From a virus: a stretch of 64,000 nt of DNA. Positions 13,704-41,554 of this stretch are shown one piece after another. The translations under genes and the position numbers were made by a program. The notes beneath the pieces were generated by a model that made no database searches, had not been told where the DNA came from, and saw only the letters and a list, made by a program, of their open reading frames with translations. Location of the stretch: the IMG/VR virus record IMGVR_UViG_3300036944_000990, positions 62,001 to 126,000 of that record. The stretch is one strand, 5' to 3'. Position 1 is the first letter of the stretch, and the number at the start of each line of letters is the position of its first letter.

Positions 13704-14327
13704 TTAGGCTGCCGGAGCTTCCGGTTGAGCAAAGGTCCAGCTGATGGCGTTGAACGCAACATCGTCACCCAGCTCTGCAGCAGTTCGCAGTTGTTTCTCG
13801 ATACCGTGGCGGTATGCGGTGAAGCCAGCCAGCGCCGGACTGTACACTGCATCATTAGCCAGGATACGCGAGACCAGGTCTTCGAAACCGTCGCCAACAT
13901 TTGCAGCCACGCGCCCTTCGTTCAGTTCCACCAGGAACGGAACTTCAGGAGCATCACCTACACGACCACCATCGATCCATGCTTGGTACGCACGGGCTTC
14001 AGTGACTTGTAGGGTCCACGTGTGTGTTTCAGCAGCGGGGTAATCGACATTGAGGACAGCCACCGCCTGATCGTAGTCAGCATTCAGACGACCCAGTTGG
14101 ATGGTCAGACGCTCGGCCAGCGGCTTGGCCAGATACTCTTCTTCCGGAGTTGGGATGTGAGGTGCTTCTACAGCGATCGGATTGCCTTCGGCATCTGCAT
14201 CGAGCACCTTACCGGCAGCCAACTCGATCATCAGTGCGGTAGCAACTTCCTCGGTCAACAGAACCGCATCGTCACCCACCGGCAGGTTGAACAGGCCTTT
14301 ACGAGAAGGCGAGAAATAGGTATTCAT
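13704..14327 (-). CDS. Tail fibre assembly chaperone (DUF4376-like)
   Basis: 207 residues from ATG at 14327 (GAGGT upstream). The N-terminus MNTYFSPSRKGLFNLP and the following GKVLDADAEGNPIAVEAP match phage tail-fibre assembly proteins of the gp38/Tfa type. The C-terminal half (AYQAWIDGGRV and the following helices) resembles the DUF4376 module found at that position. It should help the neighbouring fibre protein fold and trimerise. It lies 23 bases downstream of the fibre gene ending at 14351 and is last in the operon. Confidence 0.75.
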   Translation of the reverse strand: MNTYFSPSRKGLFNLPVGDDAVLLTEEVATALMIELAAGKVLDADAEGNPIAVEAPHIPTPEEEYLAKPLAERLTIQLGRLNADYDQAVAVLNVDYPAAETHTWTLQVTEARAYQAWIDGGRVGDAPEVPFLVELNEGRVAANVGDGFEDLVSRILANDAVYSPALAGFTAYRHGIEKQLRTAAELGDDVAFNAISWTFAQPEAPAA

Positions 14328-14350: not shown

Positions 14351-15094
14351 TTACGGGGTGTACTTGATCCACAGGTCGCCGTCTTTACCGTCAGCAGCGA
14401 CAGGGTCAACGGTCGACACGAAGATGTTGGCCGTCGAGGCAGTACCGAGGTTCAGTGCAGTTTGAACGTCACTGATTACCTGTGCTTTGGTGCGACCTTC
14501 AAGCTTAGCCGAATCAGCTGCCTGGGCAGTGGCGTTAAGCTTACCGGCCAGGTCGTCAGCCAGTGCAGCTTCGGCAGCCGCGACAGCTTCAGTTACAACC
14601 TGAGCTTTGCTCGAACCTTCCAACTTCTGAGAGTTTACAGCCGTAGCAGTAGCGTCCAGTTTCTGGCCGACCAGAGTGGTCAGTTCGGTGATCACATCCG
14701 GGTTGTTCTGTAGGGCTTCGGCCAGCTCAGCGATGGTGTTCAGGGCTTCCGGGGAAGCACCGATCAGCTCGTTGACAGCCGACTCGATAGCCGCTTTGGC
14801 CGACACAGCGGTGATGTACTTGACATCGTCAGTGCCCGCAACAGCTTCAGCAACCGAGGCCTTGGCGGCCACGAAGTCATTGAACCCTTGTTGCAGAGTG
14901 GCGAGGTCAGCACCCGAAGCCAGATCAGCCAGCAGAACGGCCAGTTCCAGTTCACCCACTTTGTATTGACCGAAGTCATCAGTCTTATCGACCTTGGACC
15001 CCAGCGATGCTGCGACGGAGGCAAGTGCCCCGTCTACTTTTTCCGACACCCAAGTCGAAAATTCGGCAAAGCCGAAAAAACGTTTATCAAACAT
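14351..15094 (-). CDS. Tail fibre-like protein with KRFFGF anchor domain (247 aa)
   Basis: The start MFDKRFFGFAEFSTWV at 15094 is chosen because two other fibre genes start the same way; a longer frame would begin inside the leader. The N-terminal 20 residues are a shared anchor motif. The rest is Ala/Ser-rich and low-complexity, with repeats of the type AKLEGRTKAQVISDV (also KLEGSSKAQVVTEA), and ends in ADGKDGDLWIKYTP. It probably forms a short trimeric fibre or a connector. It lies between the desaturase cassette and the fibre chaperone. Confidence 0.65.
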   Translation of the reverse strand: MFDKRFFGFAEFSTWVSEKVDGALASVAASLGSKVDKTDDFGQYKVGELELAVLLADLASGADLATLQQGFNDFVAAKASVAEAVAGTDDVKYITAVSAKAAIESAVNELIGASPEALNTIAELAEALQNNPDVITELTTLVGQKLDATATAVNSQKLEGSSKAQVVTEAVAAAEAALADDLAGKLNATAQAADSAKLEGRTKAQVISDVQTALNLGTASTANIFVSTVDPVAADGKDGDLWIKYTP

Positions 15095-15131
15095 TTTTGA
15101 TGCTCCGTTGAGGTGAAAATAAAGCAAGCTT

Positions 15132-15196
15132 GAAAAAGGTGTGTCGAGAGGCCAGTTTCGAGAGCCCTTTTTCATCGCCCTCTCATAAGATTCTGA
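15132..15196 (-). promoter_or_regulatory. Promoter/leader of the 14351 fibre gene, duplicated at 28410-28460
   Basis: Read leftwards it holds TTATGAGAGGG (promoter-like), then a stem GAAAAAGG/CCTTTTTC (15132-15139/15166-15173). Two exact matches link it with the leader of the 27955 gene: 14 bases at 15146-15159 = 28410-28423 and 13 bases at 15184-15196 = 28448-28460. Both precede genes with the same N-terminal domain, so promoter, leader and first codons were duplicated together. Confidence 0.5.
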
Positions 15197-15235: not shown

Positions 15236-16015
15236 TTAATCCTTTCTGATTAAACGGATGAACCAAGCTGCTGTATCGACTTCACCCTTTTTCATCACGG
15301 TGGTCCATGAGCGAGGATGTGCGTGGTGGTTGTTGTGTAAACCACAAGCACCAAAACTCAACAAGTGCATGCTCGGGGAGTTTTGAGAATGGTCGGGTGT
15401 GTCGAAACTACGGTAGTTCAGAGGTGCCTTAGCATGAAGCATGTAGTTTTGGACCGTAGAAAGAAAGGGTCCCAACGCCCAAGGCAAAAGTACAATGAAC
15501 ATCAACCCATTGATCCCCGCCAACCAATACCACAGACACGCCCACCCCAACATCCAAAGAACGTAGTATTGGTGCAGTGATTTGTGGATAGGGTCACGAG
15601 CCAAGTAACGAACAGAATGTAACGTTCCCGTGTAAGGATAACGCCACACCAACAACTCCCAGAACTTCGAGTATTGTGCACTGTGTGGATCTTTCTCGGT
15701 ATCCGAGTATTGATGATGGGCGGCGTGGATCATCGCCCAACCCATGGTCGATCCAGTTCCCGGTACCACACTGGTCAGTACTGCCAATAACCACTCAACA
15801 GGTTTGCTAAGTTGATACGCCCCATGAGTACAGAAGCGATGGGCAAAGGCTTCGATCAAACAAATGTTGAAAAACGCCACCACACCCAAAGTCGCCCACA
15901 ACCACTGGTAATTCAGTTGTGTTGTGTAGTGAAGAACCGGTAGTAGTGTCACTACTAACAACACCTGCAGCGGCATGAACTCGCCCCGCGAACGAGTGTA
16001 TTCCCAAAGTTTCAT
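15236..16015 (-). CDS. Membrane fatty-acid desaturase (delta-9 type), copy 1
   Basis: 259 residues from ATG at 16015 (AAGGGGG upstream). The three histidine boxes of membrane di-iron desaturases are intact: HRFCTH at 59-64, HAAHHQYSDTEKDPH from 97, and GLHNNHHAHP with HNNHH at 227-231. About four hydrophobic segments flank them. The family inserts a cis double bond into acyl-CoA, acyl-ACP or phospholipid acyl chains, taking electrons from ferredoxin, rubredoxin or a cytochrome; no donor is encoded nearby. The ending MKKGEVDTAAWFIRLIRKD is nearly the same as in copy 2, showing paralogy. It is last in the cassette, 10 bases after the acyltransferase gene. Confidence 0.88.
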   Translation of the reverse strand: MKLWEYTRSRGEFMPLQVLLVVTLLPVLHYTTQLNYQWLWATLGVVAFFNICLIEAFAHRFCTHGAYQLSKPVEWLLAVLTSVVPGTGSTMGWAMIHAAHHQYSDTEKDPHSAQYSKFWELLVWRYPYTGTLHSVRYLARDPIHKSLHQYYVLWMLGWACLWYWLAGINGLMFIVLLPWALGPFLSTVQNYMLHAKAPLNYRSFDTPDHSQNSPSMHLLSFGACGLHNNHHAHPRSWTTVMKKGEVDTAAWFIRLIRKD

Positions 16016-16025
16016 ATCAACCCCC

Positions 16026-16949
16026 TTAAGACAAAAGTGTCACAAATTGTTCGAGGTACGATTCTTGGTTTGGGATTGCTCGATTAAAAGCAACCCGCAA
16101 ATGATGCGTACCGTTGTAGGAGATCACTTGGAGTCTTCCCATCTGATTCTTCTTTAGAAACTGTACCAGTTCAGTAGGTTCAAAGTGACTGGAACCTATC
16201 GGGAAAGAGCCTACAAAGAAGTTTCCAATCTTCTCACTCAAACCAAACTTCATGATCAAACGAGTGAAGTTTTCGTGACTGATGTCGAGCGAGAACTTCC
16301 CGTCTTTATTAGACCCTAAAGCATAGAGCGAGTAGTGTCCCCAATAGTCCTCACACCCTTCTACAAAGCGCGTGGTGATGATGTTAGGGTTATCCAATAC
16401 CGTACAAGTCACTTGAGCGAGGTAGTCCTGTACACGCATCCCTAGGGCTTTAGCTTGACGCAAGTAACCGGTACCAATGGGGATGCTGTAGGTGTTGGCT
16501 AAACCGACCTCCCCTTCAAAGACAAAGGGTCTCAGTTCCATTGGTCCCGTCGGTTGTATTTTCGGTAAAGGTTGGTTGGATACATAAGTCCCTACCTCAC
16601 CAGTTCGGGCAATGTGGAACAGTTCACGCGTGGTCTTCATGAACGTCCAACCATCAACAAACTCGTGGGACAAACCAATCCAAAATCCGTTATCGTCCTC
16701 GGTGACCGATAAGCAGGTTGGAATCTGTTGGTGGAGGTTACCGTGACCTTGTGTTACCAACACCCGATCATGTTCCACGACTTTACCATTGACCACACAG
16801 GCTTTAAGAAGTGGGATGTGATGAGTCAGTTCGTCCACCGCTTCTTGCATCAGGTTGCGGTCACATGGGAATAAAGGGACGTTCAAACTGCTGTACATCA
16901 TCGCCTTTCCATCATTAAGAAAGGCTTTCTGAAGTAGGTTCAATTTCAT
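16026..16949 (-). CDS. HxxxDG acyltransferase-like protein (condensation-domain superfamily)
   Basis: The start MKLNLLQKAFL at 16949 is chosen because its ATG overlaps the desaturase stop (ATGA). 307 residues. It contains SHEFVDGWTF with His95-x3-Asp99-Gly100, the catalytic motif of CoA-dependent acyltransferases, condensation domains, BAHD and wax-ester/PapA-type enzymes. Preceding it is a hydrophobic alternating strand (NGFWIGLS), as in that fold. Family members are usually over 400 residues, so this is compact. Placed between desaturases, it plausibly moves the desaturated acyl chain from CoA/ACP onto an acceptor. The motif is clear; the acceptor and true reaction are unknown. Confidence 0.55.
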   Translation of the reverse strand: MKLNLLQKAFLNDGKAMMYSSLNVPLFPCDRNLMQEAVDELTHHIPLLKACVVNGKVVEHDRVLVTQGHGNLHQQIPTCLSVTEDDNGFWIGLSHEFVDGWTFMKTTRELFHIARTGEVGTYVSNQPLPKIQPTGPMELRPFVFEGEVGLANTYSIPIGTGYLRQAKALGMRVQDYLAQVTCTVLDNPNIITTRFVEGCEDYWGHYSLYALGSNKDGKFSLDISHENFTRLIMKFGLSEKIGNFFVGSFPIGSSHFEPTELVQFLKKNQMGRLQVISYNGTHHLRVAFNRAIPNQESYLEQFVTLLS

Positions 16950-17689
16950 CGTTTGATTAGCCTGATAAACCACGCCCCTGGGTCAATTTCGCCTTTTTTC
17001 ATGGCCATGTCCCAGCGGTTGGGGAAAGCGTGGTGGTTGTTGTGTAGACCCTCACCCCCAAACAAAAGTGCTAAAAGTTTGGAGTTGCGTGAGTCATCAT
17101 TAGTGTTCCAACTCTGGTATCCGAACCTATGGACCCAGTCGAGCAAAACTGTTTTGCGTAATACCTGAGTACACGCCGTTGGGATCGCCCACAAATAGAT
17201 CAGAGCCTCCCACGAGATCAAGGCTAGAACACCGGCCGTTACTAGAGGATACAAAAGGTAGTACTTTTGAATACGCATCGCAACAGGGTCGTTTAGAAAC
17301 TGTTTGAGTAACCGTCGGGGGATTGTGAGGTTCAGTTTCTTAGCGTTGACCAAACCCCAACCGCGATAATGGTTGTGGGGGTCGTTCGGGGTGTCTGAAT
17401 GTTTGTGGTGCTCGCGGTGGATAGCAATGCTGATATAGGGATGGAGTCCTCCGGCGGCACAGATAGCCCACACCATAAACTCCCGCCAGAATGGACTGGT
17501 TTCAAATGAACGGTGTACAAAGTACCGATGAGCCCCACAGGCGACGCCGCAGACCCAATACACTTGAAAGGCCATAAAACTCCCCAGTACCCATAAGGCA
17601 CTGGGGTGAATTACGCAGAACAGACTGATTCCCATTGCCAGCACAGCTACCAGAACCGAAGCCCTGCCACTGAACTGTAGATATTTCAT
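16946..17689 (-). CDS. Membrane fatty-acid desaturase, copy 2
   Basis: 247 residues. Histidine boxes: GAHRYFVHRSF (His54...His59), HREHHKHSDTPNDPH (His91/94/95) and GEGLHNNHHAFP (His216/219/220). All ligands of the di-iron centre are kept, and the spacing is that of bacterial acyl desaturases, though the protein is short (typical 300-400). Hydrophobic segments near 12-50 and 145-175 anchor it in the membrane. Both ends overlap neighbours by 4 bases (ATGA), so it is made in step with copy 3 and the acyltransferase. Confidence 0.88.
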   Translation of the reverse strand: MKYLQFSGRASVLVAVLAMGISLFCVIHPSALWVLGSFMAFQVYWVCGVACGAHRYFVHRSFETSPFWREFMVWAICAAGGLHPYISIAIHREHHKHSDTPNDPHNHYRGWGLVNAKKLNLTIPRRLLKQFLNDPVAMRIQKYYLLYPLVTAGVLALISWEALIYLWAIPTACTQVLRKTVLLDWVHRFGYQSWNTNDDSRNSKLLALLFGGEGLHNNHHAFPNRWDMAMKKGEIDPGAWFIRLIKR

Positions 17690-18474
17690 TTACGGATCAC
17701 CTTGATAATCCAATAAGCTGGATCGAATTCCCACCACTTCTCACGAAGGTTAACGGCCGTTTGGTCGTGATGGTGGTTGTTGTGCCAACCTTCACCCCCG
17801 GAGATGAGTGATACGAACCACCAGTTGTGACTCAAGTCAGGTGTTTCGTGGTTACGGTAACCCAGTCCCGGTACGTGTCCTGACCAAACCACAAACCGCA
17901 AAGTCATGTGACACATACCACCTGGAACGAGGTACAACCAGAAGAGTGCAGTCAGAGGATCAAGTCCTGCAAGTACACCCACCGAGGTCAGACCAGCTGC
18001 CAACAGCGCTACGATCAAGAAGTAATACTTGATAGTCAATCCGTGCATCGGGTCACTTGCCAACATCTTAAGCAACATGCGGTTGCCTTTGAAGTTTTCG
18101 TGGCTGAAGGGTGAGACTCCTGTGCGGATAAAGTCGATATACGGATCATCGTCTTCATCGGCATGTTTGTGGTGCTTGATGTGCAGATCAGCCCATACAC
18201 AAGGCGGACCTGTCAAGGCACCTACGCAACTGACTGCCATCACCCACTGCCAGAAACGACTGGTTGTGAACATCCGGTGAGAGAAATAACGATGCGCTCC
18301 CACCACCAATCCCATCACTTGCAAAAACTGCCAGATAGCAAGGGTTGCAAACAACAGTCCCCAACTCATGCCAAAGACGTACGCCACCAAGGGCGCTGTA
18401 AGGACACAGGCTGCGGTCAACCGATTAACGACTTTAAGTCGTGAGTAGGTAATCATGAAAGGTGGGGTTTGCAT
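17686..18474 (-). CDS. Membrane fatty-acid desaturase, copy 3
   Basis: 262 residues from ATG at 18474 (AGGAG upstream). Boxes: GAHRYFSHRMF (His61/66), HIKHHKHADEDDDPY (His98/101/102) and GEGWHNNHHHDQ (HNNHH at 231-235). It is the first desaturase of the cassette and more divergent at the second box (ADEDDDPY versus SDTxxDPH), which may mean a different chain position or substrate. The C-terminus EFDPAYWIIKVIRK aligns with those of copies 1 and 2. It follows the 18478 gene by only 3 bases. Confidence 0.88.
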   Translation of the reverse strand: MQTPPFMITYSRLKVVNRLTAACVLTAPLVAYVFGMSWGLLFATLAIWQFLQVMGLVVGAHRYFSHRMFTTSRFWQWVMAVSCVGALTGPPCVWADLHIKHHKHADEDDDPYIDFIRTGVSPFSHENFKGNRMLLKMLASDPMHGLTIKYYFLIVALLAAGLTSVGVLAGLDPLTALFWLYLVPGGMCHMTLRFVVWSGHVPGLGYRNHETPDLSHNWWFVSLISGGEGWHNNHHHDQTAVNLREKWWEFDPAYWIIKVIRK

Positions 18475-18477
18475 GCG

Positions 18478-19116
18478 TTACTCCTGAAGGCTTTCGACGG
18501 TGGCTAAACTCTCCACCGGAACGTTGGTACATTGGGCTTTGACTTCTTCTACAGTTGCTTCATAAACATAGACCAGGAACGCATTGTCTTGTCCGGTATT
18601 ACGGAAGCTGTAGTCTTGGGGTTTAGTCAAACGAAGGTGTTTGATGCTATTGAACACCCCGCCGTCATTTACCTGAAGAGCCCCTTCTACGATAAAGACA
18701 TTTTGCTCCATCTCTCGAGGGGTGATCACACACGACTCACCGGGAGCCAACGCGTAGTTCTTCGACAGGTAGAGCTTGGCCATCGGGTCTTGTGCATTGA
18801 TGCACATAAACCGATTGCGATCCTCCATCCCCAGCAGATGAAAACTACCCTTGATGGTCACACGACTCTCATCGCCACCGTCACCACGACTCCGAATGAA
18901 TTCGGGTGTAACGGTAGAGCCGACTTTAAAAGCCCCTTCGATAAAGGCGTTGAATCGGTAGGTGTTGATACCTGCATCGCTGGAACCCAAAGTCGCTTGT
19001 GCGGGCACGTCTACAGGTACTGCGGCGATCTTGTTTTTTTCCAGAACCAGTTCGAACAAGTCAAAGCCATTTACGCGAGTGACGTTCCAACCGTTACGGG
19101 TATAGGTTGTACTCAT
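18478..19116 (-). CDS. Unknown beta-rich protein, possibly cupin-like (212 aa)
   Basis: ATG at 19116 with GGAG upstream. The second half alternates strands and turns (LAPGESCVITPREMEQNVFIVEGALQ in two steps, then SFRNTGQDNAFLVYVYEA), resembling a cupin barrel, but the usual metal-binding histidines are missing. It is directly ahead of the first desaturase, in the same transcript as the fibre gene at 19977-21665. It could be a virion decoration protein or an accessory of the lipid cassette. The assignment is by shape only. Confidence 0.5.
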   Translation of the reverse strand: MSTTYTRNGWNVTRVNGFDLFELVLEKNKIAAVPVDVPAQATLGSSDAGINTYRFNAFIEGAFKVGSTVTPEFIRSRGDGGDESRVTIKGSFHLLGMEDRNRFMCINAQDPMAKLYLSKNYALAPGESCVITPREMEQNVFIVEGALQVNDGGVFNSIKHLRLTKPQDYSFRNTGQDNAFLVYVYEATVEEVKAQCTNVPVESLATVESLQE

Positions 19117-19353
19117 TTAAATCTCCTCCGTGACTTCTCGAGTCACTTGGGTTTCTTCCAATCCTTCGTTGTGATTGGTGGCGGGTTGATGAGGCAGACC
19201 GCAGTTGAACAGAACCGCATAGGCCATCCCTTGAAGGAATGCTTCGTCTGGAGGGAGTGCACCCACATCCATAGGCTCGTAAAAGATCTCCACATTCCCA
19301 TGCAGTGTTTCTACCACCACACTCTTTTCATTACGACTGACAAAATTAAACAT
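19117..19353 (-). CDS. Unknown small acidic protein (78 aa)
   Basis: ATG at 19353. Starts MFNFVSRNEKSVVVETLHG and ends in a glutamate/threonine-rich tail. No acyl-carrier DSL motif is present, so it is not an ACP for the desaturases. It shares its boundary with the downstream gene (stop directly before the next start's leader) and lies in the fibre-lipid operon. Confidence 0.5.
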   Translation of the reverse strand: MFNFVSRNEKSVVVETLHGNVEIFYEPMDVGALPPDEAFLQGMAYAVLFNCGLPHQPATNHNEGLEETQVTREVTEEI

Positions 19354-19363
19354 GGAGTCACCT

Positions 19364-19915
19364 TTATGGGAGGAGTTTAACGACAGTGGATTTATTGAGG
19401 ATAGCGCTTCTTACAGTCGTAAATTGTGCCGCGGTTATAGCAACAGAAAAGACAATTGTACTGGTGCCAGTTTTAGTGTTTGTAACAACTGTAAAGGCTC
19501 CTGAGAACGTCACCCCACCAATTACCAGTTTGGTCGCGTAGGACCAAGCAGGTCTCGCTCCACCCGTATTGACTTCAAAAGACACACTGTAGCTACCGGC
19601 ATAATTCATTACCGAACAAGTCGAAATGGCGTAGCCAGATAACGTGGTCGGTGAAACCGAGCCGTACGTGGCTGAGCCGAAACCCACATTCTCATACCCA
19701 GATGTGGGTACATAGGAAACGGCACCCAAAGTGATTTCAGCCAGACTGTTGTTAACGGCCTTGCCGCGCAACATCGACAAGTTCACCTGACCACTGAGTG
19801 CACCTACTAGTTGACGAATAGAGGCATCACTCAAATTTAATTGTTGATTGGCAGGACGACCCAATTCAGTATTGATCATACTGAATGTGATCGGACCGGA
19901 AGTAGGCAATGCCAT
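19364..19915 (-). CDS. Virion decoration/fibre-associated protein (MALPTSGPI family)
   Basis: 183 residues. The opening MALPTSGPITFSMINTELG followed by SDASIRQL and LRGKA is a widespread N-terminal module of phage tail/fibre-tip proteins, in which a start like MALPTSGPIS precedes a short LRGK turn. The C-terminal 110 residues are Gly/Ser/Thr-rich beta sequence resembling a receptor-binding or carbohydrate-binding tip. It sits 61 bases downstream of the large fibre gene and is probably attached to the same tail structure. Confidence 0.65.
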   Translation of the reverse strand: MALPTSGPITFSMINTELGRPANQQLNLSDASIRQLVGALSGQVNLSMLRGKAVNNSLAEITLGAVSYVPTSGYENVGFGSATYGSVSPTTLSGYAISTCSVMNYAGSYSVSFEVNTGGARPAWSYATKLVIGGVTFSGAFTVVTNTKTGTSTIVFSVAITAAQFTTVRSAILNKSTVVKLLP

Positions 19916-19976: not shown

Positions 19977-21665
19977 TTATTTTTCGAGTTGGCTTTGGAG
20001 TTCGGTAAGTTGCACTTTGATTTGCTCAACCGACAGCACCAATTGATCGAGTTTCGATCGATCATTGTCAGCCAAGTCCGCCAGCTCATTGATCGCCATT
20101 ACCACGTACGGAAGTGTGCGGTGGTATTTCATTGTGAGGTAGTACTCACCCGATCTTGAGACATTCGGTTCCCCGTCGTCATCGTAATCAAAAGGTGCCA
20201 ACTCAACAATTTCAGGCGCAACGACTTGCCATTCTTGAGCACTGAAACCCACCTCAGGTTTGAGGGGGTCGTAGCCAAACCCTGCGGCCAATTCGTTGGC
20301 CGTATAGCGATAGCCCGTGATGGTACGTAGACTTTCCAAAGCCCCTTCAATCGGCGTCATGTTCTCTTTCAGACGTTCGTCGGAGTAGAAGCCACTGATC
20401 TCACCTGTGGCTGCAATGTTACCCTCAACGTAGAAACTCTTAGACCCGTACACACGAACCCAAGTAGTATCCGACATATGGATGCCGCCACCATAGGTCT
20501 CGCTATACCAACCTGTTGCTCCGGTGGAACGGAACCAGTTCCCCGTATAGAAAGTCGAAGCCGTGATGTTACCGTTTACGGTACCACCCGACGTACTGAA
20601 CTTGGCATCCAGAGCTGCTTGAAGACCCGATACAGTCGAGATCGCTTGTGTACCCGTATGGTTACTACGGCTCAACAATGCAGCGTCTGTGGAGTTAACA
20701 GTGGCGCCGGCTGAGATACCATTGAGCTTGGCTTTATCGGCCGCACTTAACAACCCAGCCGCCGCAGTAGTGGCTCCAGGCAAACTGGCATTCGTACCCG
20801 TGGAGCTGGTTATAGTACCGGCAGTAGCACCTGTGGTATAGCCCAAATCGGTAGGTACGTTGACTTGGGCGCCAGCAGCAATACCGTCCAGTTTGGTTTT
20901 ATCCGCAGAGCCTGTCCACCATGCAGCAATTGCCTGACGTACCCGTTGTGCAGTCCAAGCACGACGCGTTGTAGCCACACCTGTCTCTGCTTCAGACTGG
21001 GTGATCGTAGTCGCTGACCACTCACGGGCATCTGTCAACCGTGTATCCGTCTTGTCGACTTTAGAAGCCAACTGGTTGGTGATGGTAGTTGCAAAGTTGG
21101 GATCATTACCCAATGCCGTTGCCAACTCATTCAACGTATTCAACGCATCAGGAGAAGAATCTACCAGCGCCGAAATAGCTGCATTTGTGAAGGCTTTGTA
21201 CTCAGCTTCGATTGTCGCCAGTTGTTTACCATCAAGCGCGTCAGCATCCAATCCTGAGTTAGGACCGTCCACTGTCAACAGCTTAGCCAAAACGTCACCA
21301 GCGGTATAGCCAGATGCATTGAGTTTGGTGTTCAATGCGGCCTGAAGAACGTCAGGCTGTACCGCAGTGTCGGCCTTAACGCCTTGTGCGGCAGTTGCAA
21401 ATTCGGTACGGGCCGTCACATCCAACTTAGTGTCTAGGTTGGCTGCTGCGATTGCCTCAAGAATAATCTGGGCTTTTGTTTTACCGTCAAGCAAGGATGA
21501 ATCCACAGCTTTTCCAGCAATTGCCAAGAAAGTCTCAAGGGCTTCTTGTTTCGTGTGTACACTGGTTTTATCAGCTTTAAGGTTGAGGGCATCCATGACC
21601 CCCGTGACTTGGTCACGCACCCACATGCTGAAATCAGCAAACCCAAAATAACGTTTATTGGTCAT
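19977..21665 (-). CDS. Tail fibre with C-terminal self-cleaving chaperone (peptidase S74)
   Basis: 562 residues. N-terminus TNKRYFGFADFSMWV is the anchor shared with the genes at 14351 and 27955. The middle is a repetitive collar/shaft with AKLDGIAAGAQVN and AKLNGISAGATVN repeats and HTGTQ turns, typical of long trimeric fibres. From about residue 450 the sequence SDERLKENMTPIEGAL begins the S74 chaperone: Ser and Lys five residues apart (SDERLK) form the dyad that cuts just before the Ser after trimer folding. The rest (GYRYTANEL, EVGFSAQEW, coiled coil EQIKVQLTELQSQLEK) is the released chaperone. It is the receptor-binding candidate. Confidence 0.85.
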   Translation of the reverse strand: MTNKRYFGFADFSMWVRDQVTGVMDALNLKADKTSVHTKQEALETFLAIAGKAVDSSLLDGKTKAQIILEAIAAANLDTKLDVTARTEFATAAQGVKADTAVQPDVLQAALNTKLNASGYTAGDVLAKLLTVDGPNSGLDADALDGKQLATIEAEYKAFTNAAISALVDSSPDALNTLNELATALGNDPNFATTITNQLASKVDKTDTRLTDAREWSATTITQSEAETGVATTRRAWTAQRVRQAIAAWWTGSADKTKLDGIAAGAQVNVPTDLGYTTGATAGTITSSTGTNASLPGATTAAAGLLSAADKAKLNGISAGATVNSTDAALLSRSNHTGTQAISTVSGLQAALDAKFSTSGGTVNGNITASTFYTGNWFRSTGATGWYSETYGGGIHMSDTTWVRVYGSKSFYVEGNIAATGEISGFYSDERLKENMTPIEGALESLRTITGYRYTANELAAGFGYDPLKPEVGFSAQEWQVVAPEIVELAPFDYDDDGEPNVSRSGEYYLTMKYHRTLPYVVMAINELADLADNDRSKLDQLVLSVEQIKVQLTELQSQLEK

Positions 21666-30375: not shown

Positions 30376-31017
30376 TTAGAAAAAGAAGTCGAGGTCGATG
30401 TCTTTCTTGTCGAAGGTGTGGAACGCTTCACCTACGTTTTCCAACGCTGTGGTAGCGGTTCTCATCAACTCTTCCACCGCTTTACGAGCTTCTTTAGGCT
30501 TGACGACAGTGGGGACGTAAAACGCTTCGAAGGCTTTGTCGTTGACCTTTACACCAGCGTAGCCAATGGTCGCCCACTCGGGTGCGAATTGTTTAACCAA
30601 CACTTTAACGGCATCGGTCGACCACCACCAAGGATCAGTACGCAGTTCACTTTCAGAAGTGATGATAACGCGAATGTGTGGGACGCTTTCCAAGTTGTGT
30701 GACGGTGCTCGCACCACGGTCTCAGCGACTTGAAGGAAACTGATAGGCCCGTTGTAACGTACCGACGCACCTTCGTTTTGTACCCACAAGCCCGTAGGTT
30801 CTTTGCCGTTACGGCGCATCTCGCTCAAGGTGGCATAACCTTCTGCCCCGTCGTATTGAACGATTTGAGATTCGTCGATCTCCAAAGACAACACGTCTTC
30901 ATTGAAGTTGGGTTGGACGTAGTCCATGTCAGGATAGAAGGTCAGCGAGATCCCGGTATCCAGTTCCTTGAGGTGGGGTGTGATCAACGCATTCAGAGCA
31001 AAGTACATTTTACGCAT
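30376..31017 (-). CDS. Unknown protein (213 aa)
   Basis: ATG at 31017. An acidic N-terminal half and a C-terminal helical region with a Lys/Asp tail (DKKDIDLDFFF). A WWW stretch near residue 130 is notable. No family recognised. First of several unknown genes between thyA and the Nudix-like gene, spaced 10-60 bases apart and probably one transcript. Confidence 0.6.
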   Translation of the reverse strand: MRKMYFALNALITPHLKELDTGISLTFYPDMDYVQPNFNEDVLSLEIDESQIVQYDGAEGYATLSEMRRNGKEPTGLWVQNEGASVRYNGPISFLQVAETVVRAPSHNLESVPHIRVIITSESELRTDPWWWSTDAVKVLVKQFAPEWATIGYAGVKVNDKAFEAFYVPTVVKPKEARKAVEELMRTATTALENVGEAFHTFDKKDIDLDFFF

Positions 31018-31075
31018 GGGTTATTCCTTTTACCGATCCAAAAAGAAAAGGCCAGCGAACTGGCCTTGAGTTGGG

Positions 31076-31510
31076 TTAAAGCACTACTGTAACACGGCCT
31101 GAGGCTTGTAACCCGGCCCAGAAGTGACTGAGTACGCGGTCTTTGTCACGTTCACGTTGGTGTTCACTGGCGTAGGTCATACACCCCTGTAGCTGATCAA
31201 TGAACTGATCAATGGCATGGTCCAAGCCTTCAGGAAACCCAAGCCATACAGAGGGCTTTACAGGGACTTGGGCTAGGTCAACTGGAGGGATAGCATCACC
31301 CAAGGGTCGATCAATGACCGTAGTGAGCACCACGATGGCACTTTCAGTCATGAAGGCTGTCAAGTGAAACGCACGCGCATGGTCTTTAGGGCAATCACCC
31401 AACACTTCGAAATGCCGATCCCACATATCGGGTTCTTCTTTAACGAACAGAGCCTCACGAGCTTGTGGGGCGAGGAAGGTGCGAAATTGACCGTAGTTTT
31501 GTGTTGACAT
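31076..31510 (-). CDS. Unknown protein (144 aa)
   Basis: ATG at 31510. Contains histidine-rich HARAFHLTAF and a proline-rich segment IPPVDLAQVPVKPS. No recognised domain. Located 20 bases downstream of the 322-residue gene. Confidence 0.6.
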   Translation of the reverse strand: MSTQNYGQFRTFLAPQAREALFVKEEPDMWDRHFEVLGDCPKDHARAFHLTAFMTESAIVVLTTVIDRPLGDAIPPVDLAQVPVKPSVWLGFPEGLDHAIDQFIDQLQGCMTYASEHQRERDKDRVLSHFWAGLQASGRVTVVL

Positions 31511-31530
31511 GGGAACTTAGTCCTTTAAAA

Positions 31531-32499
31531 TTAGGCAGTTGCTTGTTGGATTGAGGTAACCTGAGTTTTGTGAACGAGATCAACCAAGCTAAACATCCGC
31601 TCGGGGCGGTACGTGCTGTATTTGACAATGGTCGTATCGCGACGGCCAGGGAAGTCAACTACAACCATGGTGGTTTCTTCTTTCTCTGAAGTACACTCAC
31701 CCACAACCATTCCTACCCACGTAGGGGTCGCTACGAGGTCACCATAATTGAAACCGCCAAAACACGGGGTTCCCCACTTAGTGCGAACATGGGGATGGTC
31801 TTCTTCAACATAACGCTGAGTCTTGAAGGTCCAGCTGAACAAACTTTCCTCAGGTTCACTGGCTAATAACCAATGGCTGAGTAACGGACGACCCATCGGG
31901 ATGGGATTTAATACCGCATTCCACAGGTGGCCTTTGGTGTAGTCCCAGTGGATAATGTGTTTGAACTTCAGTGTTTCAGCATCCAGGACATTGAAGTTGA
32001 TGATACTGCCTTGGGAAAGACTAGCGCTGTCACAGGGACGAGACCCCGAGTACAGGGTCAGCAGATTACCAAAGGTATCTGTCCCGACCACCCATTCAAC
32101 CACGCGGTGCAAAGACATCGCCTTGGCAGCGTAGGATGCCGCCAGACGTTCGTCCACACCTTGGGTGAGGGCTACATACCTGAAGTTACCAGCGGGCAAC
32201 AGTGCGGCTTTGGGAACCTCTTCCACGGTGTAGGTAAAGGTACTGCGTTCGTGAGTGTAGGGGTTGAGTATTGCGTAGGATTCTTCGCGTTTACTGCGAT
32301 CGTAGTCCGCACTTGTAATCATGCGAATTTGCGAACTAAGGCCGAGTTGACGACCTCCTAGATCGTTGTGGCGAACGTAGGCACACCCATCAGCTTTAAT
32401 CGCAGCTTTCACTTTGATAAACAACTCACTACGACGATGGGGTTTGGAGAATTTAAACAGCGCATTCGCTGCGCGTTGAATGAAGCCTGGGGTGCTCAT
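31531..32499 (-). CDS. Unknown protein (322 aa)
   Basis: ATG at 32499. Basic N-terminal 30 residues (MSTPGFIQRAANALFKFSKP), then a mixed alpha/beta body with VRHNDLGGRQLG and WGTPCFGGFNYGD segments. No enzyme motif recognised. It lies between the Nudix-like gene and smaller unknowns. Confidence 0.6.
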   Translation of the reverse strand: MSTPGFIQRAANALFKFSKPHRRSELFIKVKAAIKADGCAYVRHNDLGGRQLGLSSQIRMITSADYDRSKREESYAILNPYTHERSTFTYTVEEVPKAALLPAGNFRYVALTQGVDERLAASYAAKAMSLHRVVEWVVGTDTFGNLLTLYSGSRPCDSASLSQGSIINFNVLDAETLKFKHIIHWDYTKGHLWNAVLNPIPMGRPLLSHWLLASEPEESLFSWTFKTQRYVEEDHPHVRTKWGTPCFGGFNYGDLVATPTWVGMVVGECTSEKEETTMVVVDFPGRRDTTIVKYSTYRPERMFSLVDLVHKTQVTSIQQATA

Positions 32500-32559
32500 A
32501 CTCGTTCCTTGATGACATAGCAGAGTGAGCCTTACGACCCACTCTGATACATTTATGGG

Positions 32560-33441
32560 TTACAGACGTTCAGCTTGACACTCTGCCGAACAGCCTTCTT
32601 CTGAAACAGTTTCTTGGGCTTCTTGCACGCCTTCAACACCACCCACGGCAACCAGACCTTTGAGGGCCTCTTCCTGTTGGGCTTTGAAGTCGGCGAACTG
32701 CACCGCTGCAGCCAGACCTGCTTGGGTCAGGTCTTCGATGAAGCTGTCTTCGAAACCTTCGATCAGCAGCTTCGACCAGTTTTCGAAGTTGTAGTCGGCC
32801 AGGGTTTGGCGCAGCTTGCTCAGCGGAATGAAGCCCAGGCCGACAGCCGAGGATTCGCCCATGACCGGCTCGAGACCGTAAGGGATCATCATCAGCATGG
32901 TCACGCCGAGATGACGCTGACCGACCGGGTCGCTGTTGTCGTTCAGGTAGCCGTAGATGCTCGGTTGAGCACGGATGTTTTCGTCGAGCAGGGCTTGGAT
33001 GATCGGCTGCCCTTTGAGGGTCAGTTCTTCACACAGCTCTTCCATCACGTTGTACATGATGGTCATGCCGAGGTTCAGGCTACTGTGGGCATCGTAGAAC
33101 TGAGCATGGCTGACGTTGATGTGACCGCCCAGACCGATAGAGTGACGACCCAACAGGCGCTCTTCGCCGCTACCTTTCACACGCTGGTAAACGAAAACTT
33201 CGAGTTCACCTTCGGGGTTCACGCGGAAGATCTGGACGTAGGGGAGCAGGTGACGATAGGCCGGGTTTTCTTCGACCGCCTCACGGCGCTTGATGGCCAG
33301 CCCTTCATTGAGAGCGGCTTCCAGTTGCTGGATATTGGCGAAGTTCGGGGCCATGTCCGTGCCGGTGGCAAAGCCTTCTTTCGGGAACAGGTCATTGATC
33401 TGAGCGGTGGGATGAACGAGGATCAGTTCTTTCTTCGACAT
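32560..33441 (-). CDS. Nudix-like hydrolase
   Basis: 293 residues from ATG at 33441. The central part has the Nudix arrangement: GLGGHINV at 103-110, then after about 20 residues MYNVMEELCEEL at 129-140, corresponding to the REUxEExGU helix that binds Mg. The usual Arg is Glu here, so the box is GGHIN...EELCEEL. Nudix enzymes remove nucleoside diphosphate-linked groups (for example NTPs, ADP-ribose, capped RNA); phage ones include T4 NudE. The C-terminal 60 residues are a glutamate/alanine-rich tail. A substrate cannot be chosen; a non-catalytic Nudix fold is possible given the missing Arg. Confidence 0.6.
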   Translation of the reverse strand: MSKKELILVHPTAQINDLFPKEGFATGTDMAPNFANIQQLEAALNEGLAIKRREAVEENPAYRHLLPYVQIFRVNPEGELEVFVYQRVKGSGEERLLGRHSIGLGGHINVSHAQFYDAHSSLNLGMTIMYNVMEELCEELTLKGQPIIQALLDENIRAQPSIYGYLNDNSDPVGQRHLGVTMLMMIPYGLEPVMGESSAVGLGFIPLSKLRQTLADYNFENWSKLLIEGFEDSFIEDLTQAGLAAAVQFADFKAQQEEALKGLVAVGGVEGVQEAQETVSEEGCSAECQAERL

Positions 33442-33447
33442 GGGTCG

Positions 33448-33648
33448 TTATTTCCTTGTAGGTTGGGTAGGGGTTTTTGCGTTAGCAACAATCCAGTTGT
33501 CCACATCATCCAGTTTAAATAACACAACCGGCTCAGTTTCAACGGGGGTGAGTTCCTCCACACATCGCAGGATGGCTTGAACGTGATAGCCCTTACAGGC
33601 CAGTTTGGTGTACAGTTGTTCGCGTGCGATGGTTTTAATAGCGGCCAT
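33448..33648 (-). CDS. Small unknown protein (66 aa)
   Basis: MAAIKTIAREQLYTKLACKG onward, ending in a Thr/Pro/Lys tail. It lies 6 bases upstream of the Nudix-like gene, so the two are likely co-translated. No motif. Confidence 0.55.
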   Translation of the reverse strand: MAAIKTIAREQLYTKLACKGYHVQAILRCVEELTPVETEPVVLFKLDDVDNWIVANAKTPTQPTRK

Positions 33649-33714
33649 AGTCTGACTACTTCGGGGAGGTTAAGGTTAAAGGCTTTTGCTCACAGCATGG
33701 GACTTGCTAGTTTT

Positions 33715-33993
33715 TTATAACTGTATGTTGTACTCTTCGACCAAGGCTTGGATTTCTTCTGGGGGTAAGAACTCAATATGGCTGCGGAACGGCCATTCTT
33801 TTACCAGAGCCAAAAACCGTTGCGTGGTTTCCGGGTGAGACTCACTATATTGAGGAAACGCCTCAACCACCCGCAAGGCCAGCGACGCAAGTCGGTCCAC
33901 ACCCAAATTTTGCAACAGGGTTGCATCCTTCGGGTGGTTTTCCATCGTGTTGATGGCTTTGTCGATAAAGGCTTTCCATTGGGTACCGCGCAT
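33715..33993 (-). CDS. Small helical protein (92 aa)
   Basis: MRGTQWKAFIDKAINTMENH onward; predicted mostly helical (LAALALRVVEAF-like segment) with an acidic C-terminus (PEEIQALVEEYNIQL). No family. Eleven bases after the 34005 gene. Confidence 0.55.
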   Translation of the reverse strand: MRGTQWKAFIDKAINTMENHPKDATLLQNLGVDRLASLALRVVEAFPQYSESHPETTQRFLALVKEWPFRSHIEFLPPEEIQALVEEYNIQL

Positions 33994-34004
33994 ACACCAC
34001 TTCC

Positions 34005-34271
34005 TTACAGATTAAGATTGGCGGGATCTTGGTCGAGATAACCGATCCGCACGTTGTAGACATGACCGTCTTCACGTTGACGTACGATCTCTACGGGCCA
34101 GCCGTAGGTATCTCGTTCAAAGAAGACCAAGTCAATGTTATATTGTTCGGGGACATGGAAGTCAGGGTGTTCGAGCACCCCTTTGATGAACAACTCTTCC
34201 TCGAACTGGTAGGTGAGTACTACCATGGGTGCGTCTTGATAACCGCACTTAGTCAGTGTGACTGTCGTCAT
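34005..34271 (-). CDS. Small unknown protein (88 aa)
   Basis: The start MTTVTLTKCGYQDAP at 34271 gives a 23-base overlap with the upstream gene, more plausible than the longer frame whose first 43 residues are Arg/Ser/Thr-rich out-of-frame sequence. Beta-rich, ending in RIGYLDQDPANLNL. No family recognised. Confidence 0.55.
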   Translation of the reverse strand: MTTVTLTKCGYQDAPMVVLTYQFEEELFIKGVLEHPDFHVPEQYNIDLVFFERDTYGWPVEIVRQREDGHVYNVRIGYLDQDPANLNL

Positions 34272-34860
34272 CGTCAAGGTCCTCGAGGTCTTCCAAGGTT
34301 GCGGGACGGAAGTTTGGTGTAAACGCACGGCACGTATGGCGCCCTGCGCTGTCGACAATCCAGATGCTGGGGACTGTCGGGTACAACACGCTGTTGTCAT
34401 CGAAAGCAGCGTAATTCAGGGTGAAGTAATCACAGAGTTCGCCGCCGTCCAAGAAGTACGCGCGAGGGCGAGCGTTCTTCACACAGATGTCTTCGACTTC
34501 CTTACGCATCACCGTGTATTCGGCAACGTCATAAAAAGACAAATCCCCGATGACTACATAGCGGACATCAGGGGACAGGTTTGGTGAGACGGTCACCGGG
34601 ACACCATCTACCCCTTCGATAACCACAGTGCGCATGACTCGGGGTTGAGGGATTTGGAGAATGCGAGCATACTGAATCACATCCTCACTGTTATCGTTGA
34701 CAGGATGCCAAGCCAATACAAAGCCAGTCGCCCCATTGTTGATAAGGTCGCCCACCTCGGCCAATACTTCAGCGTCGAGTTCGCCATTACCAAGGTAACT
34801 CCCACGGATTTGGGAGAAACGGCTTTCACCATTGATGCGGTCTTCGATCAGTTTAAACAT
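34249..34860 (-). CDS. Unknown protein (203 aa)
   Basis: Begins MFKLIEDRINGESRFSQIRG; alpha/beta look with VVIEGVDGVPVTVSPN and an aspartate-rich C-terminus (LEDLEDLDDDDSHTD). The end overlaps the next start. No family. Confidence 0.6.
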   Translation of the reverse strand: MFKLIEDRINGESRFSQIRGSYLGNGELDAEVLAEVGDLINNGATGFVLAWHPVNDNSEDVIQYARILQIPQPRVMRTVVIEGVDGVPVTVSPNLSPDVRYVVIGDLSFYDVAEYTVMRKEVEDICVKNARPRAYFLDGGELCDYFTLNYAAFDDNSVLYPTVPSIWIVDSAGRHTCRAFTPNFRPATLEDLEDLDDDDSHTD

Positions 34861-34861
34861 C

Positions 34862-35353
34862 TCAGATTCCTTGAGGAATGTAGGTTAAGTTTGGGGTTTT
34901 ACGTTTACGACGAAGTTGTTGTTGATTGTGCACCGCACTGATCAGGTGATCAGGGACATCGAGTTCGATCTCCACCTGAATCAAACGGTAGTTTTTGAGT
35001 TGCCCTTGGTACATGACCAAGACCGACTCCTTTAATGGCTGAATCTTCCAAATGTGAGAGAAGTACTGAATGACCCTTAAGTACACCGAATAACTCAACA
35101 TCACCAACGAATTGAACTCGTGTTCTTCAAGGTCGTTAATACGATCCATCACCACACGATCATCGTTGAAGTCTTCGTCCCACAACGTACCGTCAAAGAG
35201 GTATTCAATCATCTCGGTATGGAATTTCTCATACTCCATATAACGGTAGCTGGCGCAGTAGTTCAGGGCACAATCAAGCAGGTAAGGTTCTAGTAGACGA
35301 AACAGATGATTAGATCCCAAATGGAGGTCCGATACATCAACAGTCACCAACAT
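34862..35353 (-). CDS. Unknown early-type protein (163 aa)
   Basis: ATG at 35353. Contains many aromatic residues (CASYRYMEYEKFH) and a basic tail (QQLRRKRKTPNL). It heads the minus-strand series down to thyA and follows a promoter-like element at 35384-35400. No domain recognised. Confidence 0.6.
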   Translation of the reverse strand: MLVTVDVSDLHLGSNHLFRLLEPYLLDCALNYCASYRYMEYEKFHTEMIEYLFDGTLWDEDFNDDRVVMDRINDLEEHEFNSLVMLSYSVYLRVIQYFSHIWKIQPLKESVLVMYQGQLKNYRLIQVEIELDVPDHLISAVHNQQQLRRKRKTPNLTYIPQGI

Positions 35354-35379
35354 GATACAACACCCAGTAGCAGAGTCAC

Positions 35380-35400
35380 TTTTATAATGTATGTCTCAAA
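35380..35400 (-). promoter_or_regulatory. Early-type promoter-like element for the 34862 gene
   Basis: Read leftwards: TTTGAGACATACATTATAAA. It shares the T-A-[TC]-A-T-T-A core and the upstream TGAGA/TCAAG context with the stronger copies at 43037 and 59330, with one core mismatch. Confidence 0.35.
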
Positions 35401-35431
35401 TGTGTTTAATTACCGACTCAGGGTGTCAGGT

Positions 35432-35446
35432 ATGGTATGAGAGGGG
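35432..35446 (+). promoter_or_regulatory. TATG-type promoter motif for the 35499 gene
   Basis: ATGGTATGAGAGGGG, about 55 bases upstream of the ATG. It combines the ATGGTAT and TATGAGAGGG versions of the motif seen elsewhere. Confidence 0.45.
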
Positions 35447-35498
35447 AAACGTACTCTCACTTTAAATGGGCAGTAGGAAACCAAAGGGGAAACAAACC

Positions 35499-36017
35499 AT
35501 GAAATACGATATCCTGAAAAGTGGTATTGAAAACATTCTGGCTCTGGTCAATGCGGACAACGCCCAAGCGTTCACTCTTGAGCAGATCTCGATCGGTGCA
35601 CCTGCGGTATTCGTGGATGAGACGGGGGTCAATCCACGCAACACCCAGATCGTGGTCAGTGCTCAACCGGGCAGTGGTATGGTGGGTTCTCAGACTCATC
35701 GTTACACCCGTCTGGATCTGGCTGGTCTTCCGGTAGCTCCGATCGAAATTCAACTGGGTGAGACCACCACTCTGGCTGACGTCAAAGCCGACGTTGTTGG
35801 TCAGCTGCTGGTCTCTGACAGTGAAGTCGAATTCACCGTCGCCGAGATCCCTGCTTTCGAAGAAGGCGTAACCTCTCAGGTCCTGACTCTGCAGGCTATC
35901 GACGGTAGCTACGGCTATATCGGTTCCGTAGAGATCACCGTCCTGGCTTACGAGGCTCCGCCGGTTGAGCTGAGCAGCGTACTGCCGAACCAAGACCTGA
36001 ATGGTTTTGAGTACTAA
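35499..36017 (+). CDS. Probable virion structural protein (172 aa)
   Basis: The start MKYDILKSGIENILALVN at 35499 has AGGGGA upstream. After a short helix the protein is beta-rich (FTVAEIPAFEEG, SVEITVLAYEAPP) with regular codon usage of common codons, as in strongly expressed virion genes. It is a single-gene plus-strand unit with its own TATG promoter and strong terminator between minus-strand genes. A decoration or minor head protein is plausible; no family name is assigned. Confidence 0.6.
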   Translation: MKYDILKSGIENILALVNADNAQAFTLEQISIGAPAVFVDETGVNPRNTQIVVSAQPGSGMVGSQTHRYTRLDLAGLPVAPIEIQLGETTTLADVKADVVGQLLVSDSEVEFTVAEIPAFEEGVTSQVLTLQAIDGSYGYIGSVEITVLAYEAPPVELSSVLPNQDLNGFEY

Positions 36018-36030
36018 GTAGCAAACGGCA

Positions 36031-36066
36031 TACAGGGAGGCGTGAGCCTCCCTGTAGGCTTTTATG
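36031..36066. terminator. Bidirectional terminator
   Basis: TACAGGGAGGC-GTGA-GCCTCCCTGTA, 11 bp, flanked by ggca on the left and cttttatgcgg on the right, between convergent genes. Confidence 0.85.
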
Positions 36067-36069
36067 CGG

Positions 36070-36672
36070 TCACAAACCAGAACGGTTAATGACTTCATCA
36101 ACCATCTTGTTCAAGTCGCGATGACCGGACATCAGGTAGTAACGGCTAGGATCTGCTTCGATCTGATCCAAGAAGCCTTCACGCACCCTTTGGTGGTATT
36201 CCAACCCCTTGGCTTCCATCCGGTCCAGTACCCCACGGGCACTTACTTTTTCGAAAGACAGTTTGGGGTCGACGTCGATCACCACAGTCAAGTCAGGACG
36301 AAATTCGCCCAACGTGGTGTTGACCAACGCATTGAAGGTGTGTCGTGAAAGGTTACCACCACGGCACTGGAGTGCGTAAGTCGAGTCAATGAAACGATCG
36401 CACAATACGATCTTACCCATACGGAGATGGGGTTTGATCACTTGTTCGATGTGCTGGCGCCGGCCGGCGAAGAACAACAGAGCTTCGGTCAGCGGATCAA
36501 CTTTCTCGTCGCGGTGGCGCAGCAGTACTTCACGAATCTCTTCAGCCATCGGCGTACCGCCAGGCTCGCGAGTTTGAATCACCTCGTGACCCATGCACTC
36601 AAGGCGAGTGGCTAACGCATTACGCAGAGTGGTTTTGCCACATCCTTCCCCGCCTTCAAACACAATGAACAT
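36070..36672 (-). CDS. tmk: Thymidylate kinase
   Basis: 200 residues. FEGGEGCGKTT (residues 5-15) is the P-loop, TREPGGTPMAE the dTMP-binding motif with the Arg after the strand, CDRFIDST the DR(F/Y) signature, and FRPDLTVVIDVDP the next strand. It phosphorylates dTMP to dTDP, the step after phage thymidylate synthase. Together with NrdAB, DHFR and ThyA it completes dTTP supply apart from nucleoside diphosphate kinase, which the host has. It lies 2 bases from the end of the 36675 structural gene. Confidence 0.95.
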   Translation of the reverse strand: MFIVFEGGEGCGKTTLRNALATRLECMGHEVIQTREPGGTPMAEEIREVLLRHRDEKVDPLTEALLFFAGRRQHIEQVIKPHLRMGKIVLCDRFIDSTYALQCRGGNLSRHTFNALVNTTLGEFRPDLTVVIDVDPKLSFEKVSARGVLDRMEAKGLEYHQRVREGFLDQIEADPSRYYLMSGHRDLNKMVDEVINRSGL

Positions 36673-36674
36673 CG

Positions 36675-38015: not shown

Positions 38016-38589
38016 TGTCCTTACCTCCGCGTTTATCAACCATGTCCGTAATGGCGTGCGCCAGCGCATTGTGGGTATAATCCACTTTTGGCATTTCAGC
38101 CTGCTCTTGGGACGCACGTCGACGAACACTACGACGACTGTTGAGTCGATCCAAGGCGTTGAACAGCTTGGAATTGGTCGGTTGGGTTTCCATGTACATC
38201 CGAGCCATGGGGAAGAGCTGTTCGGCGAACTCTTCCAAGGTAGCCAGGTCCTCTACCGGTGCATCGCGACGGTTGGGGTCTAACAACAGAGCATCGTGCC
38301 AGTCACTGATATGGTCCCGAATCCATTCATAGATCTGTTTGGAATCATCGGGGTTGATCAGTGCAATCTGGGCACCCTGGCGGGCTTTATCCGCCATCTG
38401 CGCAACCGTCAGACGCGCAGGAACAGGAGCGTTCATACGTCCGTTGTCCACAGCATCATCCATCGAGGTGTGCAGGCCGAAGTGTTCGGCAAACGATTGG
38501 TCGATCAGATACAGCTGTGGGATCATGCAATCGACGTAGTATTTGAAGATCTTTTCGGCGGGGGTGTGCCCAGGTTTTTCGATGATCAT
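38002..38589 (-). CDS. Structural-module protein (195 aa)
   Basis: ATG at 38589. Helical with RRSVRRRASQEQ basic stretch and acidic VEDLATLEEFAEQL. It ends in KGGKDSAGE, overlapping the next start by 14 bases. Its position in the coupled run suggests a tail assembly or baseplate role. Confidence 0.55.
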   Translation of the reverse strand: MIIEKPGHTPAEKIFKYYVDCMIPQLYLIDQSFAEHFGLHTSMDDAVDNGRMNAPVPARLTVAQMADKARQGAQIALINPDDSKQIYEWIRDHISDWHDALLLDPNRRDAPVEDLATLEEFAEQLFPMARMYMETQPTNSKLFNALDRLNSRRSVRRRASQEQAEMPKVDYTHNALAHAITDMVDKRGGKDSAGE

Positions 38590-41506: not shown

Positions 41507-41554
41507 GGTTAACTCCTTGGGTTGTGTAGTGTCAACCACACGTTTAGTCTAAGC

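Follow-up and report, generated by a model that had tools for sequence, protein, structure and literature searches.

A conserved desaturase and acyltransferase-like gene cassette in the tail-fibre locus of phiKZ-like jumbo phages

We have analyzed a stretch of 64,000 nucleotides (the window) covering bases 62001-126000 of a 131,545-base virus record in IMG/VR (IMGVR_UViG_3300036944_000990, hereafter G000), which is itself a fragment. On its minus strand, inside a tail-fibre locus, lies a cassette of genes coding for three predicted membrane fatty-acid desaturases (D1, D2 and D3) and a compact acyltransferase-like protein (AT). Many proteins of the window resemble those of Pseudomonas phage Phabio, a phiKZ-like jumbo phage, with 57% identity for NrdA, 61% for NrdB and an E value of 1e-179 for a virion protein of 975 amino acids (aa). 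Judged from these similarities, the record carrying the cassette is a fragment of a phiKZ-like jumbo phage.

The genes form a packed run (Table 1) in the order MALPTSGPITF-type tail protein (MALP), 78-aa protein, 212-aa protein, D1, D2, AT and D3, separated by 10, 0, 3, -4, -4 and 10 bases and ending 60 bases short of the next fibre-like gene. An earlier note on this DNA had described D1, D2, AT and D3 as a four-gene cassette translated as one coupled unit. All four open reading frames (ORFs) were found where it had placed them, as were the two 4-base ATGA overlaps (D1/D2 and D2/AT) and the gap of 10 bases between AT and D3. The 3-base gap, however, lies upstream of D1, after the gene of the 212-aa protein; the run begins three genes earlier (at 19915) and D3 is outside the conserved core described below. 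The proposed position within a tail-fibre locus was borne out, the desaturase genes being bordered on both sides by virus fibre genes, with the S74 fibre gene upstream and the fibre-like and tail-fibre-assembly genes downstream. The length given for AT is counted from the ATGA start, and a longer ORF starting with GTG extends to 16973. No family match was found for the 78-aa protein. In a scan for promoters and terminators the number of sites was not above that of the shuffles.

Table 1. Genes of the packed run and its fibre-locus neighbours (positions in the window)
Feature	Position	Strand	Evidence
Tail-fibre protein carrying an S74 intramolecular chaperone at its C-terminus; precedes the run	19977..21665	-	Pfam Peptidase_S74 E 1.6e-10; PHROG tail-fibre families; same-place homologue in L148, L149
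MALPTSGPITF-type tail protein (MALP), 183 aa, first gene of the run	19364..19915	-	32-34% identity to same-place L148/L149 proteins
78-aa protein	19117..19353	-	75-77-aa gene at the same place in L148, L149, L226; position and size only
212-aa protein, C-terminal half weakly cupin-like	18478..19116	-	43-44% identity to L148/L149
D1, predicted membrane fatty-acid desaturase, 262 aa	17686..18474	-	PF00487; three His boxes
D2, predicted membrane fatty-acid desaturase, 247 aa	16946..17689	-	PF00487; three His boxes
AT, compact acyltransferase-like protein with HEFVDG motif, 307 aa	16026..16949	-	motif and predicted fold
D3, predicted membrane fatty-acid desaturase, 259 aa, an addition specific to the window	15236..16015	-	PF00487; three His boxes
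Small tail-fibre-like protein, downstream of D3	14351..15175	-	PHROG tail families
Tail-fibre-assembly-like protein	13704..14327	-	phrog_188 E 6.5e-8

The desaturase assignment of the earlier note held for all three proteins. D1, D2 and D3 scored 57, 49 and 54 bits against the FA_desaturase family of Pfam (PF00487, cut-off 29.7), and every His of the three boxes (HxxxxH, HxxHH and HxxHH) is retained in each; in D1 these are H61/H66, H98/H101/H102 and H231/H234/H235, with matching residues in D2 and D3. Against the DesA family NF049918 they reached 52-67 bits, below the equivalog level of 400 bits. In the case of AT (ACYLTRANSFERASE), the motif HEFVDG is found at residues 95-100, containing the His95 and Asp99 singled out before, and motif and fold search together point to the predicted compact HxxxDG acyltransferase of the CAT/condensation type. 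When a low-confidence AlphaFold model built from four sequences was compared with the Protein Data Bank (PDB) by Foldseek, all of the 50 matches listed belonged to the CAT/condensation/WS-DGAT superfamily (best E 5e-7), among them condensation, heterocyclization, epimerization and related domains of nonribosomal peptide synthetases (NRPS), wax synthases, PapA5 and a BAHD enzyme. We take this as good evidence that AT, as modelled, belongs to the CAT/condensation/wax-ester-synthase superfamily; it does not indicate the substrate. As in WS/DGAT, PapA5, BAHD, CAT and NRPS condensation-domain enzymes, the HxxxDG motif is located about a third of the way into the protein. AT differs from them in its size, 307 aa against some 390-450 aa for typical superfamily members among the Foldseek matches listed, and in having no detectable sequence similarity to any of the curated families. 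We found no relatives of AT among the bacterial genomes, plasmids and annotated phages searched. The single candidate from a search of 369 genomes of the class, a stretch of 49 residues containing a stop, was not accepted.

Related phages were found to carry the cassette, as the earlier note had asked to be checked. A profile scan of viral contigs gave two records, L148 (269,790 bases) and L149 (254,123 bases), and a scan with an AT profile a third, L226 (253,747 bases); as D1 and D2 of L149 and L226 are nearly the same, the window is joined by something closer to two independent lineages than to three. The three (G025-G027) each match the 975-aa virion protein of the window at 35-36%, which marks them as phiKZ-like, and the L149 record has a direct end repeat of 127 bases and is probably complete (circular). 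In all of them the block order is the same (MALP, about 77 aa, 209 aa, D1, D2, AT), and a homologue of the S74 fibre protein precedes it also in L148 and L149. The identities between the window and L148/L149 were 51-53% for D1, 52% for D2, 44-46% for AT and 43-44% for the 212-aa protein, whose L148 homologue has matches to Pirin_C and KduI, both below threshold. The range of 44-46% for AT holds across all three relatives, and its motif is HEF[VL]DG in the four phages, with H95, D99 and G100 invariant. Comparing L148 with L149, the ratios of non-synonymous to synonymous substitutions (dN/dS, NG86) were 0.06 for D1, 0.03 for D2 and 0.07 for AT. Because the block order recurs and these ratios are so low (0.03-0.07), D1-D2-AT is a maintained unit under purifying selection and not the quirk of a single isolate; chance is excluded on the same grounds, and inactive copies confined to this isolate are ruled out.

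This data also bear on the suspicion that bacterial genes had landed as passengers in the fibre locus, or that the contig is chimeric. It draws on the metagenomic origin of a fragmentary record and on the lack of D3 in the relatives. Against it, the same junctions are present in three other records, one of them probably circular, purifying selection is strong, the base composition of the cassette (0.490) is similar to that of the rest (0.508, standard deviation 0.014) and D1-D3 place among phage sequences in trees. We regard this explanation as extremely improbable and largely refuted, a recent bacterial import or a chimera being ruled out by the three other phage records, the normal GC and the tree placement.

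In a tree of 63 rows, D1 and D2 are sister paralogues (support 96) and each has orthologues in the three relatives (support 99). The split between D1 and D2 thus predates, on this tree, the divergence of the four phages, which suggests that both were maintained side by side as different enzymes. The same pattern appears in three other phiKZ-like records, L034, L035 and L036 (the L035 record has 222,493 bases and a 127-base end repeat), where positions 1, 2, 3 and 4 of a tandem desaturase array are separate orthologous groups (97-100) and position 4 is duplicated in L036. This orthology by position speaks against mere dosage. D3 groups weakly (86), on a long branch, with array position 1 of these records, and its placement is unsure. 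An Asn located 4 residues before the mid-sequence His, which we take to be the Asn ligand of stearoyl-CoA desaturase, is retained by D3 and by every one of the 19 non-window phage desaturase rows of alignment A1. D1, D2 and array positions 1 and 2 have lost it, and position 3 partly so, which is consistent with a diverged chemistry of D1, D2 and the array paralogues.

The paralogues also bear on the main rival explanation, that the desaturases raise the unsaturation of host phospholipids (for cold or salt tolerance, release or the vesicles of early infection), AT being unrelated or an accessory acyl-shuffler. This is the published model for the desaturases of Arctic brine phages (PMC7300359), many phages carry a single desaturase, and D1-D3 are weakly similar to DesA-type desaturases. 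However, one desaturase would suffice for membrane fluidity, the paralogues found here are orthologous by position and not copies that could stand in for one another, and the translation of AT is coupled to that of D2, with 44-46% identity kept between the window and its relatives. On balance we hold this explanation to be unlikely.

Of 114 viral and 80 bacterial loci gathered, at least 26 of the former and at least 2 of the latter, among the matches listed, have two or more desaturase genes side by side; the loci were chosen by similarity and the counts are not frequencies in nature. Tandem arrays in phages have 2-7 copies. Ten of the 25 desaturase-bearing phage records, G000 included, have a ketosynthase, and eight have a match to acyl carrier protein (ACP), seven of them over the cut-off. 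AcpS was also found in L040, L053 and L065, and a FabA/Z dehydratase in L053. The longest run, in L040 (9848-15382), has seven consecutive desaturase genes downstream of ACP, AcpS and a gene resembling type III polyketide synthases. Phage desaturases thus often appear to sit in acyl-building clusters. With ketosynthase, ACP and AcpS genes next to other phage arrays, the case for a dedicated acyl product is stronger than the window alone could make it. Two further sets of desaturases have to be mentioned here. Short contigs of Nitrososphaerales metagenome-assembled genomes (L068 and L070) have pairs of desaturases of phage length (about 250 aa) and are possibly viral contigs in an archaeal bin, and the desaturase of the Acinetobacter 'phage' MD-2021a (L021, CAKLQH020000002.1) was discarded for its bacterial neighbours (btuB, trpB and ydiU), the record being probably mislabelled.

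The arrays of L034, L035 and L036 follow the order radical S-adenosylmethionine (SAM) genes, two 2-oxoglutarate (2OG) oxygenases, ketosynthase, desaturase array and fibre gene. The window phage and its three relatives have a matching radical SAM operon at a separate locus, beside other fibre genes. In G000 it is located upstream of the window at 30912-41533 (L024, L025), an operon-like set of a cupin, several radical SAM/Cys-motif proteins and two 2OG-Fe(II) oxygenases, which is conserved in G025-G027 and adjoins the arrays in L034/L035/L036. Beside the radical SAM genes, at G000 32451-32990 (L024:12451-12990), lies a gene for a protein of 179 aa with a Cys/His-rich C-terminus (CHTSCHSNCNCN) and no Pfam match, possibly the substrate of the operon. 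A similar radical SAM gene run has been reported in the Ralstonia phiKZ-like phages RP12 and RP31, yet searches of phage collections with D1 and D2 gave no Ralstonia phage, and we do not claim a functional tie between radical SAM genes and desaturases. MALP-type proteins with a C-terminal half extremely rich in Thr/Ser/Arg repeats also adjoin the arrays (L034:15892-16392, L035:16633-17145 and L036:15014-15727), and the 183-aa MALP of the window resembles those of L034 and L036. A kinship of the 212-aa protein with the cupin-like family of L034/L035/L036 was not adopted, profile comparison giving a probability of 14%.

The reading that we favour, tentatively, is that the cassette codes for a pathway of several steps that tailors acyl groups from host donors and transfers them, and that is expressed together with the tail-fibre module. 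D1 and D2 (plus D3 in this phage) would be diiron desaturases of the inner membrane acting in succession on fatty acyl groups of the host pool, at the expense of O2 and host reductant. AT, a presumably soluble enzyme of the CAT/condensation/wax-ester-synthase type, would then shift the acyl group from a thioester to the hydroxyl or amine of an acceptor, which is most likely a molecule of the cell surface or one associated with fibres. Enzyme activity, the sequence of steps, the site and type of unsaturation, and the identity of donor and acceptor are what we infer. All this suggests that the virus would make a tailored acyl product of its own, beyond softening the host membrane. Sequence favours none of the three products raised by the earlier note (membrane phospholipid, an acyl modification of a surface or fibre component, a small acyl signal) over the others. 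The role in phage nucleus membranes that it also raised is doubtful, because the nucleus of phiKZ-type phages is a protein shell.

Several observations weigh against this pathway. The core common to the four phages has two desaturases and not three, D1 and D2 being the only ones in G025-G027. Neither a ketosynthase nor an acyl-AMP ligase (PF00501) was found in the fragmentary record G000 or in G025-G027. AT had no match in Pfam, PHROGs or NCBIfam and no significant sequence match in the PDB; the confidence of its model was low (predicted local distance difference test, pLDDT, 51; predicted TM-score, pTM, 0.42; a single-sequence model with pLDDT 38 was useless) and the global TM-scores of the Foldseek matches were about 0.3. 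Finally, the fibre genes next door may reflect nothing more than when the cassette is expressed, or a site that tolerates insertions. The lack of ketosynthase and acyl-AMP ligase in the cassette phages also implies that the product must draw on host acyl groups, as the earlier note had supposed. ACP gave no match either (PF00550) in the 131.5 kb of G000, nor by pattern in G026.

These same absences tell against a diffusible polyunsaturated or acetylenic small molecule, a signal or inhibitor made by what would be a reduced phage cluster for acyl natural products. Other phage arrays do adjoin ketosynthase, ACP, AcpS, FabA/Z, radical SAM and 2OG-oxygenase genes, as such a cluster would. In the cassette, however, no exporter or thioesterase was recognised (no thioesterase profile search was made), and we consider this explanation improbable. 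It is still harder to credit that AT puts the desaturated acyl group directly on a fibre-linked protein, for example MALP or the 212-aa protein. Tail-protein genes and enzymes do share one packed run and the block is conserved whole, but desaturases and fibre parts act in different places, and the substrates acylated by known members of the CAT/condensation fold are mostly small molecules or intermediates bound to a carrier. There is finally a more ambitious version of the pathway that we favour, in which diverged desaturase paralogues encoded in phiKZ-like fibre loci produce an acyl group of unusual kind, unsaturated or acetylenic, that is attached to a virion or host-surface molecule, AT founds a new compact acyltransferase family and the cassette derives by reduction from the wider ketosynthase/ACP acyl clusters of phages. 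Taken as a whole, we find it somewhat unlikely.

Phage desaturases have until now been interpreted as helpers of membrane fluidity. The conserved desaturase-desaturase-acyltransferase unit of the fibre locus, together with the arrays accompanied by ketosynthase, ACP and AcpS, points to defined acyl products built by phages. If this is true, desaturases listed as auxiliary metabolic genes need rereading, and phages would have a new tool to alter the chemistry of the host surface or of the virion. The lipid desaturases that Roitman reportedly described in cyanophages in 2018 are also phage-borne and of the membrane type, but belong to a cyanophage setting, and we know of no acyltransferase partner or fibre locus for them. 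Freshwater pelagimyophages have fabF and a stearoyl-CoA desaturase (PMC7029224), a desaturase beside an acyl-chain gene in a different phage group; the part of that source available to us reports neither a tandem array nor an acyltransferase. Bacterial polyyne clusters, to which the earlier note had likened the cassette, need at least three desaturases, an acyl-AMP ligase, an ACP, a thioesterase and a rubredoxin (PMC8406139). Several desaturases together are common to both, three in the window and only two in G025-G027. Membership was rejected on the negative searches for the ligase (in G000 and G025-G027) and ACP (in G000 and, by pattern, G026), and a rubredoxin pattern (no profile search was made) was absent from the L148/L149/L226 loci and G026. 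The closest precedent are the phages of Arctic cryopeg brine, with up to five desaturases each, interpreted as membrane-fluidity genes (PMC7300359, PMC10405475). Like the phages described here they have large genomes coding for several membrane desaturases that contain the three His boxes, and their predicted hosts are Pseudomonas. Unlike in that account, the core found here consists of two desaturases and a coupled acyltransferase-like gene, without ketosynthase. The literature searched gave no account of phages with a desaturase-acyltransferase unit. Phage desaturases as such have been published, even five per genome; what is novel is the variant with a coupled acyltransferase, and the position in a fibre locus and the orthology by array position are new observations.

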